Origin: Enterobacteriaceae endosymbiont of Plateumaris braccata
GTDB taxonomy: Bacteria; Pseudomonadota; Gammaproteobacteria; Enterobacterales; Enterobacteriaceae
Reading direction: 5' to 3'
DNA length: 64,000 nt
NCBI RefSeq assembly: GCF_012563325.1
Contig: NZ_CP046232.1
Location: forward strand, 250,321 to 314,320
The notes beneath the pieces are model-generated. The model was not told where the DNA came from. It worked only from the letters and a program-made list of their open reading frames with translations, and searched no databases. This document shows, in pieces, positions 27,743-42,725 of this stretch. The translations under genes were made by a program, and so were the position numbers. How positions within the stretch are numbered: the first letter of the stretch is position 1; every line of letters starts with the position of its first letter.

Positions 27743-29563
27743 TTAATCATCTAAAAAACTTTTAAGTATTTCTGAACGACTTGGATGACGTAATTTTCTT
27801 AATGCTTTAGCTTCGATTTGACGTATTCTTTCTCGAGTTACATCAAACTGTTTTCCTACTTCTTCTAATGTATGGTCAGTATTCATATCAATACCAAATC
27901 TCATTCTTAATACTTTAGCTTCTCTTGGAGTTAAACTAGACAATATATTATATGTAGCTAAGCGTAAACTTTCTGAAGTTGCTGATTCTAAAGGTAATTC
28001 TAGAGAACTGTCTTCAATAAAATCACCTAAATGTGAATCTTCATCATCTCCTATAGGAGATTCCATAGAGATAGGTTCTTTTGCTATTTTTAATACTTTT
28101 CTAATTTTATCTTCTGGAATCATCATTCTATCTGATAATTCTTCAGGAGTAGGTTCTCTACCAATTTCTTGTAATATTTGTCTAGAAATACGATTTAATT
28201 TATTAATAGTTTCAATCATATGAACTGGAATACGTATAGTTCTAGCTTGATCAGCAATAGATCTTGTTATAGCTTGTCTTATCCACCAAGTGGCATATGT
28301 GGAAAATTTATAACCTCTTCTATATTCAAATTTATCTACTGCTTTCATTAAACCAATATTACCTTCTTGAATTAAATCAAGAAACTGTAATCCTCTATTT
28401 GTATATTTTTTTGCAATAGAAATAACTAATCTTAAATTAGCCTCAACCATTTCTTTTTTAGCACGTTTAGCTTTAGCTTCACCTATTGATATTTTTTTGT
28501 TTATATTTTTTATTTGATTAATAGTTAATCCAGTTTCTTTTTCAATTTTAATTAATTGTATAAAACTATTTTCTATTTTTTCAAATAAATTTTTTAATTC
28601 TGATAATGATAATTTATTATTTATTTTTAATTTTTCTAATTGATTACAAAAATTATTTATATTAGTTTTACTTGAAACAAGTAATAAAATAGTTTTATTT
28701 TTAGATATTTTACATTTTTCAACACATAATTTTGTTATATAACGTTCTTGTATACGAATACGTGACATTATAGAACGAATATTATTAACTAAAAAATCAA
28801 ATTCTTTAGACACTAAACGAAATTGTTTAAATATTTCTGCAAGATTCTGTATTTCATTTATAGAATGATTATGATTTCTACCTTTTTCTTTTATTATAAA
28901 AGATGTAATATGATATTGATTTCTTAATTCTGAAAATTTTTCTTTAGCTAATTTAGGATCTATAATATTTTCATTATCACTTGATTCATTTTCTTCTTCA
29001 GAGAATTCTTTTTTAATATTAATAATTTTATTTAACATAATTTCTTCATTAATATTTATATTAATAAAACCGTTAATCAAATCAGATAAACGAATATTTC
29101 CTAATTCTACTTGATCATATTTTTTTAATAAATAAATAATAGCTTTTGGATATTCAACAAAAGAACACTGTACTTGATTAATACCTTCTTCTATTCTTTT
29201 AGCAATATTAATTTCGCCTTTTCTTGTTAATAGTTCTACCGTACCCATTTCACGCATATACATACGTACTGGATCTGTAGTCCTACCTATTTCTGAATCA
29301 ATATTAGTAGATAACACTTGTACTAAAGATTCTTCTTCTGTTTCATTGTTTATATTATCATTTTGATTTAAATCGTCTTCATCAGGAGCTTCTTCCATTA
29401 TTTGAATTCCCATATCATTTATCATTTGAATAATATCTTGAATTTGATCGGAACCAATAATATCATCTGGTAGATGATCATTAACTTCTGAATAAGTTAA
29501 ATATCCTTGTTCTTTACCACGTATAACAAGAAGTTTAAACTGTAATTGTGAGTTATGCTCCAT
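27743..29563 (-). CDS. rpoD: RNA polymerase primary sigma factor (sigma 70)
   Basis: This is the housekeeping sigma factor. The product from the ATG at 29563, which aligns with E. coli MEQNPQSQ, is 606 aa (E. coli 613); an earlier in-frame ATG adds four residues. Region 1.1, region 1.2 ([21 protein letters not shown]), a shortened acidic non-conserved region, region 2 ([42 protein letters not shown], near identical to E. coli), region 3 and region 4 ([24 protein letters not shown]) are intact. The order rpsU-dnaG-rpoD is that of the E. coli macromolecular-synthesis operon. Confidence 0.98.
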
Positions 29564-29698
29564 AAAAAATTCCATACTTCTACTATCATATTTTATAAGA
29601 TTATTATTTTACAAAAACAAATAAAAAACGAATATTTTATTCATAATTATATTATAATATATATCTAATATTTAATAAAAAATAAAATTTAATATATT

Positions 29699-31458
29699 TT
29701 AAAAATTTTTTTTAATTTTAACCAAATTTTTATTTAAAGACCATAATTCTTTTTTTTTTTTCAGATCTAATCCCTCTTTTCTATCTAAAAAAATTAAATA
29801 TTCTTGTCTTTCTTCTATAAGATTCATTTTTAACTTATTAATTAAATGTATAAAAAAATTTTCTATTTCTTCTTCTGGAACCATATGGTTCCATACTGCT
29901 AATATTTCAAGAGGTTTTTTAAATTTTGTTCCTCTATATCGTTCTAATATTTGTACTGTTGTGATTTTTTCTTTATTACAAATCTTGATTAATTCTACAA
30001 AAAAATTTAAACCATTAATATTAGATGTTTTAAATAATTTTAATTTTGGTATAATTTTAATTAATTCAGGTTTTTGTAATAATAAACTAATTAACATTCG
30101 TACTGTTGTTTTTCTAAAGTTACTTAAATAATCATTATTGAATAATTTTTTTATATTTTTTTTTTTAATAGTTAACTGATATATTTCAAAAAAATTTAAA
30201 ATACCTATTTTTTCTCCTATTTTTTTTATTAAATTAACTTGAAAAATATAATCTGGTATACTATGTATTAATGATAATGCTATATTAATAAATTTAGTTT
30301 TTCCTTCGCAATCTTTAAGATTTATTTTATTTATTAAAACTTTAAAAAAAAAATCTGAAAATGATAAACTATTATTAATATGTTTTTCAAACAAAATTTT
30401 TCCTTCTTTTTTTATTAAACTATCCGGATCTTCTCCATCTGGAAGCAGTAAGAAATTTATTTGTTTACCATGTACCATATGAGATAAGCTAATTTTTAAT
30501 GAATGCCAATTAGCTTTTCTTCCAGCATTATCCCCATCATAACAATAAATAATTTTATTAGTAATTTGAAATAACTTTTTTATATGTTCATTTGTGATGG
30601 ATATACCTAAAATTGCTACTACATATTTTATATTAAATTGAAATAAACTAATAACATCAGTATATCCTTCTACAACTAAAATTTTTTCTAATAAATGAAA
30701 TTTTTTTTTTATTTCATATAAACCATATAACTCATTTCTTTTATGAAAAAAAATATTCTCTGGGGAATTTAAATATTTTGGTTCTTTATTTTCTAAGGTT
30801 CGACCACCAAAACCAATAATTTGACCTTGTATATTTTTAATTGGAAATATTATACGATTATAGAAAATATCAAAATAGTTTTTTGTAGTTTTACTATAAA
30901 TTAATATTTTTAATTCTTTAATCAAATATTTTTTTTTTTTTCATCATCACATATGAAATAAATTAAATTTTTATTAGAAAAACCAATAGAAAACTCATCC
31001 AATATTTTTTTATTAAAACCACGATTTAATAAATACTGATAAGCTTTTTTTCCTAAAGAAGAATTTACTAAAGAATCTTTATATAATTTATTAATATCAA
31101 ACATTAAATTATATATATATTGTTTTTTATTTATATTATGTAAATTGTTTTTGTCATTTTTATAAGGAATTATAATACCAAAAAAATTAGATATTAATTT
31201 AACACTTTCAATAAAATTAATATGATCATAATTCATTATAAAGTCAATTATATTACCATGTACTCCACAGCCAAAACAATGATATAATTGTTTTTCTTCA
31301 CTAACAACAAATGAAGGATGTTTTTCTAAATGAAATGGACAAATACCAAAAAAATTTTTACCTCTTTTTTTTAATTGTATCCTGTTTTGTATTATTGATA
31401 AAATATTACTTTTACTAAGTAAATCATTTATATATGTATGGGAAATATATGTTTTCAT
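29699..31458 (-). CDS. dnaG: DNA primase, split into two frames at a poly(A) run
   Basis: DnaG makes the RNA primers for replication. The 5' frame (31458 to 30922, 178 codons) holds the CHC2 zinc domain (CPFHLEKHPSF, YHCFGCGVHGNIIDF) and ends in DDEKKKNI. The 3' frame (30925 to 29699) begins at the next matching residue and contains the Toprim core (VVEGYTDVISL, YDGDNAGR) and the DnaB-binding tail. Together they cover the whole E. coli protein without loss. The break falls at 13 A's (30929-30941); 14 or 11 would fuse the frames. The gene is essential, so I infer slippage, two cooperating fragments, or a base-calling error, not a dead gene. Confidence 0.92.
30929..30941 (-). other. dnaG: 13-A homopolymer at the dnaG frame break
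   Basis: Thirteen T's on the plus strand read as 13 A's in the dnaG mRNA. With 13 the 5' frame stops at TGA just after AAT ATT. One extra A would read GAA followed by four AAA codons and TAT TTG ATT AAA, joining the fragments in frame. Such runs are known sites of RNA polymerase slippage. Confidence 0.85.
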
Positions 31459-31535: not shown

Positions 31536-31751
31536 TTAATATAAACGAATTTTTTTTAAATTTTCTCTTGCTATTTTTTTTGCATGTCGTTTAATTGCTG
31601 ATGCTTTAGTTCTTTTTCTTTCTGTTGTAGGTTTTTCATAAAATTCTCGACGTCTAACTTCTGATAAAATACCTGCTTTTTCGCAAGCACGTTTAAAACG
31701 TCTTAAAACTAAGTCAAATGGTTCATTTTCACGTACTTTAATTACTGGCAT
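31536..31751 (-). CDS. rpsU: 30S ribosomal protein S21
   Basis: S21 is a small basic protein near the mRNA exit that helps translation initiation. The 71-aa product equals the E. coli length, with [25 protein letters not shown] and EKPTTERKR. It precedes dnaG and rpoD as in E. coli, with a 77-base gap, and is divergent from tsaD. Confidence 0.99.
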
Positions 31752-39297: not shown

Positions 39298-40425
39298 TTA
39301 ATATTTAATATTATCTAAATATTTTATTTTATTAAAATTCCATTTCCAATTTTTAACTAAAATGTTTATTTCATAATATTGCCAATTACAAATTTTTTTA
39401 TTTATTGATAATTTTACACGTGTTTTAATATAAAAACATTTTCTAATTAAATCCAATCTTTTTAAATCACCAATTTTAATTAAGTAAATTGTAATTTTTT
39501 TTAACATCATATAATAAGAATCTAATTCTAATGAAGTGATACTACCATCATGTAAATATTTTTTAAAATCGATAGCTAATAATTTAATATTAGGATTTTC
39601 GTATAAATAACTTTCTAATAATAATATTTTTAAGATCGTTTTATAAGGATCTAAATCTATTTTTTTATAAATATATCATAAACTATATTTAAAATAGTTT
39701 TCAACAGAAATGTTTTTTAATCCTCCTAAATCTAACCATTCATTTTTTAATAAAAAATTTTTTTTATATAAAAAATTTACATAATCATTGTAACAATTTT
39801 CTTTATTAATTGGTATAATATTCCATATTATAGGTTTACCAGCCATACGAACAGCTGTTCTATAAAATTCATCTAATAAAAGATTTTTATTAATAATATT
39901 AAAAGAGGGTTTTTTTATTAAAATATTTTCTTTACGAAAATATTTTTCACCTATTAAAAAAAAAATTACTTTCACACCCATTAAATTACACCATTTTTTT
40001 AAAATAGAAAATTTTTTTCTTAAATATAAACATTTTTTTTTACTTAACTATATTTGATGAAACACCCAGATATCAAAATCAGAATTTTTATTTTGACCAA
40101 TGGATGATATACTACCCATAGAATATATTCCTGTAATTGGATTGTTATATTTAAAATATTTCTTTTTTATAAAAATATTAAAATTTTTTGTTAATAAAGA
40201 TAAATATTTTTTGTTAGGATAAAAATTATCTATGCCGTATGGAATATTATCTGAAATATATCCTGGAATTAATGGATGATTATAATGTAATAATATAGGT
40301 AATAAGATATATATTTTTTTAAAAATATAATTCATTAAGTTTATAGATCTATAAATTCTCAATTGATTTAATATATGCATTCTTTTTATATTTTTTTCTA
40401 TATAATAAAAAAAAATTTTTTTCAT
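39298..40425 (-). pseudogene. cyaA: Adenylate cyclase (class I) remnant with two nonsense codons
   Basis: A single reading frame of 376 codons aligns with the catalytic half of E. coli CyaA (848 aa). NQLRIYRSINLMNYIF, LLHYNHPLIPGY, ITGIYSMGSISSIGQNKNSDFDIWVFHQ, LLDEFYRTAVRMAGK, NEWLDLGG and RLDLIRKCFYIK match clearly. It is interrupted by TAG at 40048-40050 and TGA at 39676-39678, both where E. coli has Trp. It ends at a TAA at 39298, and the regulatory half is gone. The absence of frameshifts suggests recent inactivation. Its position near trxA and rho is syntenic with E. coli. Confidence 0.95.
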
Positions 40426-41023: not shown

Positions 41024-41476
41024 ATGAAAAAAAAAAATAAAATTTTATCTTCTTTAAATATTTTATCTATTGCTGGAGTTTCTCCTTATAAATTAAAACC
41101 AGAAGAAGAATATATGAATGAAAAACAATTATTTCATTTTAAAAAAATATTACAATCTTGGCGAAAACAATTAATAAATGAAAATAGTCATAATATTTCT
41201 TATATTCCAAATGAAATGTCAAAATTTTCTGATCCAATAGATAGAGCTGTACAAGAAGAAGAATTTAATTTTAATTTAAGAAATAAAGATAGAGAAAGAA
41301 AATTAATTAAAAAAATTGAAGTAACTTTAATAAAAATTAAACAAAATAATTTTGGTTATTGTCAATCTTGTGGAATAGAAATTGGTTTAAAAAGGCTAGA
41401 AGCTCGTCCTACTGCGCATCTATGTATTGATTGTAAAACTTTAGCCGAAATTCGTGAAAAACAAATAGCAGGATAA
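41024..41476 (+). CDS. dksA: RNA polymerase-binding transcription factor DksA
   Basis: DksA inserts into the RNA polymerase secondary channel and, with ppGpp, adjusts rRNA and amino-acid promoter activity. The 150-aa product (E. coli 151) keeps the coiled-coil tip with Asp70 and Asp73 (SDPIDRA), [22 protein letters not shown] and the zinc motif [26 protein letters not shown]. Full conservation suggests that stringent-type control of transcription still operates. Confidence 0.98.
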
Positions 41477-41480
41477 ACAA

Positions 41481-41508
41481 TAATTTATAAATTTATATTT
41501 ATAAATTA
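41481..41508 (+). terminator. 11-bp A/T hairpin after dksA
   Basis: TAATTTATAAA at 41481-41491 pairs exactly with 41498-41508 around a six-base loop, starting four bases after the dksA stop. It is composed entirely of A and T and has no T-run after it, so it is only a possible 3' end structure. Confidence 0.35.
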
Positions 41509-42682
41509 GAATAATTTCTGGAAATAATATAAAAAATAAATCTTATTTTTTATATTTTTGTTCAAAATAATTATAGTAAAAAAAGTAAATAAAAAAAACT
41601 CCTTTTGAATAAATTTAAAGAATTTAAAAAATGTAAAATTAAATTAATAATACTAATATTTTTAATAAAATGGTATTTAATAATTCAGCAAAAAAATAAT
41701 ATAGTAATTAAAATACTTATAATAATAAATAAAAATTAAAAATAAATATGTAAGAAAAAATATTAATATAAAATAATTAATAATTTTTCAATATTATGTT
41801 TAAATTTAAATTTTTTAAATGATGAAATAATATTTGAATATAAGTGATTTAATAATATTAATTTTAATTAAATCTAGAACTATAAATTATATAGAATTAA
41901 ATTCTAAAATATTTTTTCTTTATGATCTAATAATTTGACTAAATATGATAAAATATTCTTATATTTTTAAGTAACAAAATTTAGAAATAATTTTTTAGTT
42001 TAGAATATTTATTATTAATACTTATAATCTTATTTAATTTTACTAATTAACTTATATTTAAATTTATAAAATATAAAAATAATTTATTATTATAAATTTA
42101 TAATTTAATTAAAATAATATTTTTTTATAGTTCAAATCTTTAAAAATAATCATATGTAATATTTTAATTTAATAACAATTTTGACTATTAGTATATTTAA
42201 AATTAATAATTGTAAATGATCATATATAAAAAATTTTATTATCATAAAACATCTTTTAATTTCTTCTGATAATATTTAATCTATATAGTTTTTTTATTTT
42301 TATAAATTTAATTTATTAATATATTTTCAATTTTTAATATAATATTTTTCTTTATTCAATAATAAACTTCTTAAGTTATCAATATCTACTATAGTTTTAA
42401 AAGATTAAAATTTTAAATTACTAGACATATTAATTTTTTAATTTAAAATTATTTTTTATTAAATTGCAACTAAAAAATTGAATATTACCTATAAATTTAT
42501 TTATTAATGAACTAAGAATTTTACAATAATTATTACAATAAAGATATTAGATTTAAGTAAAATATAAAATTATTTTTTTAAATATTTACATTTTTATTTA
42601 AATAAATTTTAAATAAATTATTAATTTTTAATTTATATAATAATATTATATTTATAATTTTAATATATTAATTAAAAATTTC
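41509..42682. other. 1.17-kb gene-free A/T desert
   Basis: This is the longest stretch without a gene in the window, between dksA and sodA. Stops are dense in all six frames. A few short minus-strand pieces read like protein (for example codons for SFKTIVDIDNLRSLLLNKEKY near 42340-42400, and LSEEIKRC near 42255), hinting at an eroded gene, but I cannot assign them to a family. Confidence 0.55.
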
Positions 42683-42725
42683 AAACGATATGTTTTATAT
42701 TAAGATATAATAAAACATATCGTTT
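42683..42725 (-). terminator. 16-bp perfect hairpin after sodA
   Basis: AAACGATATGTTTTAT at 42683-42698 is exactly complementary to 42710-42725, with an 11-base loop. It begins 15 bases past the sodA stop and is followed on that strand by GAAATTTTT. This is the best terminator candidate for sodA. Confidence 0.6.

Follow-up and report, generated by a model that had tools for sequence, protein, structure and literature searches.

How does an endosymbiont replicate its chromosome when its primase gene lies in two different reading frames? This question is raised by dnaG of the Enterobacteriaceae endosymbiont of Plateumaris braccata, which was analyzed here within a stretch of 64,000 nucleotides (hereafter the window, in whose numbering positions are given). 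As assigned with Pfam and TIGR01391, an upstream ORF of 178 aa on the minus strand (30922..31458) carries the zinc ribbon and enters the RNA polymerase domain, which is completed in a downstream open frame (29699..30940), also on the minus strand, and is followed there by Toprim and the DnaB-binding domains. The downstream ORF as listed spans 29699-30925 and encodes 408 aa from a TTG start, and its frame remains open for 15 nt further, to 30940. The upstream and downstream frames share 16 nt (30925-30940), 12 nt of which lie inside a run of 13 A's in the mRNA (30929..30941, minus strand; T13 on the plus strand), and the TGA stop of the upstream frame (30922..30924, minus strand) comes immediately after the overlap. 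These ORFs and the T13 bear out an earlier note on this DNA, in which dnaG was described as divided into two frames meeting at a 13-A run. A small ORF (31536..31751, minus strand) is the upstream neighbor of dnaG, and the next downstream gene (27743..29575, minus strand) served as a control in our analyses; we take them, from their sequences, to be rpsU and rpoD, which would give the order rpsU-dnaG-rpoD at the braccata locus.

Relative to the upstream frame, the downstream one is shifted by -1 and would thus be joined to it by a run of 14 or 11 A's, as had been proposed. Both halves were also said to keep their domains, and this holds: the bacterial DnaG domain set (zinc ribbon, Toprim, DnaB-binding) is complete over the two ORFs combined, with the zinc ribbon and the first third of DNAG_N found by Pfam in the first ORF and the remaining DNAG_N, Toprim and two DnaB-binding domains in the second. 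The scores against TIGR01391 were 175.1 bits for the upstream and 244.8 bits for the downstream ORF, both below the whole-protein cut-off of 283.6. Primase structures were matched by the upstream half up to the FSIGF motif and by the downstream half from residue 16 (counted from the listed start), limits that place the break within the polymerase domain, at a variable stretch, rather than in the zinc-domain linker. This position speaks against the possibility, listed as an alternative in the earlier note, that primase is made as two separate, cooperating polypeptides, a zinc-domain part and a catalytic part, although the zinc and polymerase domains of primases can act between molecules. The braccata symbiont genome consists of two contigs (512,214 and 5,287 bp; 517,501 bp in total), in which dnaG is single-copy, with one match per half. 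The lack of a second dnaG match in this genome and the retention of DnaB argue against a dead dnaG whose work is done otherwise, a reading that the broken frame might suggest and to which we attach next to no probability.

Comparison with close relatives, the check proposed together with these claims, was carried out for 24 of the 26 reed-beetle symbionts of PMC7289800 Table 1, those of D. versicolorea and D. semicuprea being absent from the sample. Every one of the 60 genomes searched, the braccata symbiont included, contained a dnaG match. The frame was broken in all five Plateumaris symbionts, each with a 413-aa downstream open frame and an upstream ORF ahead of it in a different frame, and in none of the 19 other reed-beetle symbionts examined; 18 of these, read by script, had one dnaG frame of 580-596 aa and the nineteenth (Donacia piscatrix) had one of 629 aa. 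As an independent check, the DnaG protein of Macroplea mutica aligned in two frames in each of the five Plateumaris symbionts. The run measures 13 nt in all five, as A13 in braccata, consimilis, rustica and sericea and as A11-G-A in pusilla. A homopolymer sequencing or assembly error, the other alternative named earlier, might be suspected from the origin of the data, given that the reed-beetle symbiont genomes, with the exception of that of Macroplea mutica, were assembled in one laboratory from short reads (150-base Illumina pairs; PMC7289800). Against it, in-frame A14 runs are reported in the braccata, consimilis and rustica assemblies, and an error is rendered very unlikely by the agreement of five assemblies in phase and by the G interrupting the pusilla run, which contradicts such an error unless that base is wrong too.

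The 64-kb windows of the five Plateumaris symbionts differ by 6-12% among themselves, and a single ancestral event would be the simplest history of the break. The European and North American-Asian lineages of Plateumaris have been reported to diverge in the Eocene (PMC10483391), and the break may be of that age, depending on how the five species are distributed over these lineages. Nine runs of at least 11 nt occur in the braccata window, and only two of them, the dnaG run and an A11 at 41024, keep at least 11 uninterrupted nt in each of the five species. The latter (41024-41037) lies just behind the start codon of a gene that we take to be dksA-like, and it has the same length in the five Plateumaris symbionts and is in frame. 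The braccata chromosome as a whole contains 22 runs of at least 12 nt, two of which are located at a frame break (the others were judged by open frames only), namely that of dnaG and that of a gene presumed to be truB-like (G000:C1:342889-345301). The truB-like gene is out of frame at A13 in braccata and in frame at A14 in consimilis and rustica, indicating that such runs can change length within the genus.

With one A added to the dnaG run, the junction comes to 52 residues in each of the five Plateumaris symbionts, a length also observed in 17 of 18 aligned intact relatives (51 residues in the remaining one), so that the joined reading restores the length of the relatives exactly. Separately made fragments could draw on several codons near the beginning of the downstream frame, including a TTG at +15 in braccata, an ATG at +33 in rustica, pusilla and sericea, and ATT, a rare start codon, at +18 in all five. 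However, no ATG, GTG or TTG is common to the five species, and the first one in consimilis is an ATG at +462, which would cost most of Toprim. Besides, the A run would be needless for two fragments, yet at least 11 A's have been kept in five of five species. Taking the lack of a conserved ATG, GTG or TTG start as disfavoring them, we regard two cooperating fragments as improbable.

Both halves of dnaG are under purifying selection in the Plateumaris symbionts. In 20 comparisons (10 pairs, two halves), pN/pS was 0.11-0.52 in frame versus 0.58-2.85 when the same sequence was read in its two shifted frames. The dN/dS values among Plateumaris ranged from 0.23 to 0.49 (median 0.30) for the downstream half and from 0.10 to 0.48 (median 0.44) for the upstream half, and these medians do not exceed the values obtained for non-Plateumaris pairs at comparable distance (0.36 downstream, 102 of 153 pairs; 0.61 upstream, 109 of 153), so that no relaxation was seen. 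No stop has arisen in the downstream half despite at least 290 substitutions (94, 48 and 148 at the first, second and third codon positions), an outcome with a neutral probability of roughly 2e-11 given the mutation weights assumed. Moreover, no frame-shifting indels relative to braccata were found in dnaG, rpoD or dnaE of the four other Plateumaris symbionts. Purifying selection and the lack of any further frame-shifting indel among the five species also speak against a dead gene. Elsewhere, seven frame-shifting indels relative to braccata were counted in rustica, and none in the other three species, in a decaying cyaA-like remnant, and 30-37 per species, partly alignment noise, in the region 41500-42700; the aligner also placed such indels in tsaD (rustica, pusilla, sericea) and in a tig-like gene (rustica, pusilla), among which only the rustica tig was examined.

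Some of these neighboring genes differ in state among the Plateumaris symbionts. The gene at 39676-40425, presumably cyaA-like, forms two short ORFs in braccata but a single ORF (375-396 aa) in consimilis, pusilla and sericea; in rustica it is partly deleted. The remnants of a gene pair at about 41457-42640, which by motif we take to be an ABC transporter permease and ATPase, are whole in pusilla and sericea and broken in braccata and consimilis. The trigger-factor-like gene carries two frame changes near its start in rustica only, with no run of at least 9 nt there as far as read.

Taken together, the frameshift in this essential gene is genuine, old and conserved to an unusual depth, and is most likely rescued by transcriptional slippage; the slippage put forward in the earlier note is favored as the best reading by purifying selection, restoration of length and the lack of a conserved usual start. 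One indel in the ancestral Plateumaris symbiont would have shifted the frame of its only dnaG at a long A run, and the gene would have stayed functional through slippage of RNA polymerase at the run, with one A added in part of the transcripts. A fraction of the dnaG mRNA would then encode a full-length DnaG of ~586 aa, and selection since then would have kept both halves, the A run and the phase. From the genomes we infer that slippage in the RNA may yield the full-length protein at a level sufficient for replication. Two features of poly(A)-frameshifted symbiont genes are present in dnaG, a single frame break inside a long A run of a gene otherwise intact, and conservation without decay in five of five Plateumaris symbionts. 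In Buchnera, 151 of 157 measured transcription insertions occurred in homopolymer runs, about 80% of the insertions were single bases, and they became more frequent as runs lengthened, to the measured maximum of 11 nt (PMC5574713); the correction needed in dnaG is one inserted A. Corrected transcripts amounted to 12-50% in other frameshifted symbiont genes (PMC5009743). Several observations count against transcriptional slippage. PMC5574713 reports no case of a frame restored by transcription error, the pusilla run is only A11 and holds a good -1 ribosomal site, pairs of Plateumaris with other symbionts gave higher dN/dS values (0.57 downstream, from 9 of 90 pairs in the distance range; 0.94 upstream, from 10 of 90), and no Plateumaris lineage is back at A14, although truB shows that such a change is possible.

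The frames could likewise be joined, with an identical protein as the product, by a -1 slip of the ribosome on A AAA AAA or A AAA AAG, which may act together with transcriptional slippage and which we consider unlikely, if the most serious of the alternatives. A AAA AAG is a classic -1 ribosomal frameshift site and is the zero-frame heptamer in pusilla, with A AAA AAA in the other four species, and the direction of the shift is -1 in all five. Additionally, the dnaX site of E. coli is highly shift-prone owing to a sole tRNA-Lys (PMC5009743). However, structure in the 80 nt downstream of the run is not conserved (z of -1.96 in braccata and of 0.13, -0.10, 0.83 and 0.40 in the others), the 25 nt upstream contain no obvious Shine-Dalgarno-like stimulator as judged by eye, and the dnaG run exceeds the length that a ribosomal site needs. 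Breaks in both directions at one place in dnaE of another genus, described below, also argue against a ribosomal slip.

Poly(A) frameshifts in Buchnera and Blochmannia are already known (Tamas 2008 and Wernegreen 2010, as cited in PMC5009743, PMC3017870 and PMC4389277), as is that of dnaG in Blochmannia vafer (PMC3017870), and Plateumaris dnaG resembles these cases as a conserved gene out of frame at a long A run. It differs from the Buchnera and Blochmannia cell-wall and histidine genes, for which there is RNA evidence, in being a replication primase known from sequence alone. In the ant symbiont B. vafer, dnaG was described as frameshifted in a homopolymeric A/T run and otherwise in frame, and transcriptional slippage was proposed, not shown (Williams and Wernegreen 2010, PMC3017870). 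The gene and the kind of run are the same in both systems, but the B. vafer break was exclusive to one of three genomes and the Plateumaris break is common to five species of another symbiont lineage. Slippage in dnaX is ribosomal in E. coli and transcriptional in Thermus (PMC5009743), and dnaX shares with Plateumaris dnaG an A-rich slippery site in a replication gene; unlike dnaX, both products of which have roles, only the shifted product of Plateumaris dnaG has the Toprim part, and no stimulator was seen. Our literature search, whose coverage lay outside most subscription papers, found no report of a split dnaG in reed-beetle symbionts. In the main text of PMC7289800 (Reis et al. 2020), there is no mention of dnaG, primase, slippage, homopolymer, pseudogene or replication, and in that of a later reed-beetle transcriptome study (PMC12508126), none of Plateumaris, dnaG, primase, slippage or frameshift. 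What is new is the conservation across five species, together with the finding that A runs also break dnaG in two further genera of symbionts.

In the genus g77, with chromosomes of 411-425 kb, dnaG is broken in five of six genomes, between the polymerase core and the helicase-binding domain, and the sixth genome has one 600-aa frame. The longest runs in the g77 frame overlap are A11, A12, A15, A17 and A22, and in three of the five the overlap extends over 37-52 nt, so that the shift need not occur in the longest run. In genome G096, dnaG is broken at an A12 inside the polymerase core. All of these breaks, as well as those of the five Plateumaris dnaG genes and the braccata truB-like gene, are -1 and mendable in principle by one more A. 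The exception to this direction is dnaE in genus g134, broken at the same place at A11 in G156 (+1) and at A15 in G262 (-1).

The frequency of such breaks was surveyed in a set limited to 80 small genomes of the family, with the length of open frames and paired matches as criteria. The set comprised 61 genomes not earlier shown to be intact, which include all of the broken ones, and 19 intact ones; of the 23 small genomes beyond this limit, most had been seen to have an intact dnaG, the rest being fragmented, contaminated, with two full copies or with no match. Six of the 80 genomes had a broken dnaG (five at A runs in two genera, one at an in-frame TGA in G162), a proportion that is an overestimate, since the genomes left out are mostly intact. 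In the same 80 genomes, and among the matches listed, there were no broken frames for proS and one two-frame case for rpoD, in G169, caused by Ns; dnaE was broken in two genomes, both at A runs in one genus, and several of its matches had stops near the ends. Counted per genus, broken dnaG, proS, rpoD and dnaE were found in 2, 0, 0 and 1 of 34 genera. Genus g155, with genomes of about 700-800 kb, had one dnaG frame in 14 of 14 genomes, which argues against a wide recurrence of dnaG breaks.

Selection might also have kept the out-of-frame run as a control element that, through slippage, provides a steady low dose of full-length primase, with dnaG as a repeated target in symbionts, although we think this rather doubtful. 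Were it true, the repeated targets would be the Plateumaris symbionts, g77 (five of six genomes), G096 and B. vafer, broken runs that survive would usually lack a single A, since insertions by RNA polymerase are mostly of one A, and the unslipped product in g77 would be a primase without its helicase-binding domain. That dnaG is a hotspot or special target was not established, dnaE being broken likewise in one genus.

If transcriptional slippage does rescue it, Plateumaris dnaG would make a clean natural experiment on the persistence of an essential gene out of frame, with a single break in five species, sister genera in which the gene is intact, and a split within Plateumaris for which an Eocene age has been published (PMC10483391). 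It could be tested whether frameshifts rescued by slippage simply persist or are maintained in a favored phase, and, from measured transcription errors, one-short runs would be expected to outnumber one-long runs among the broken A runs that survive. For slippage-rescued genes, annotation as pseudogenes or fragments would be inappropriate.

Other interruptions of dnaG were observed away from long A runs. The large genomes G208 and G388 have dnaG in two frames without an A or T run of at least 9 nt, perhaps as a result of assembly errors. The dnaG of G162 carries its single in-frame TGA away from an A run, at a position where other reed-beetle symbionts have Trp, which we take to be the E. coli residue as well. 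Finally, in-frame TGA codons occur in the dnaG, proS, rpoD and dnaE matches of genus g126 (G148, G257, G329 and G389; about 300 kb), a pattern that looks as if UGA were read as an amino acid, which is known for some symbionts.
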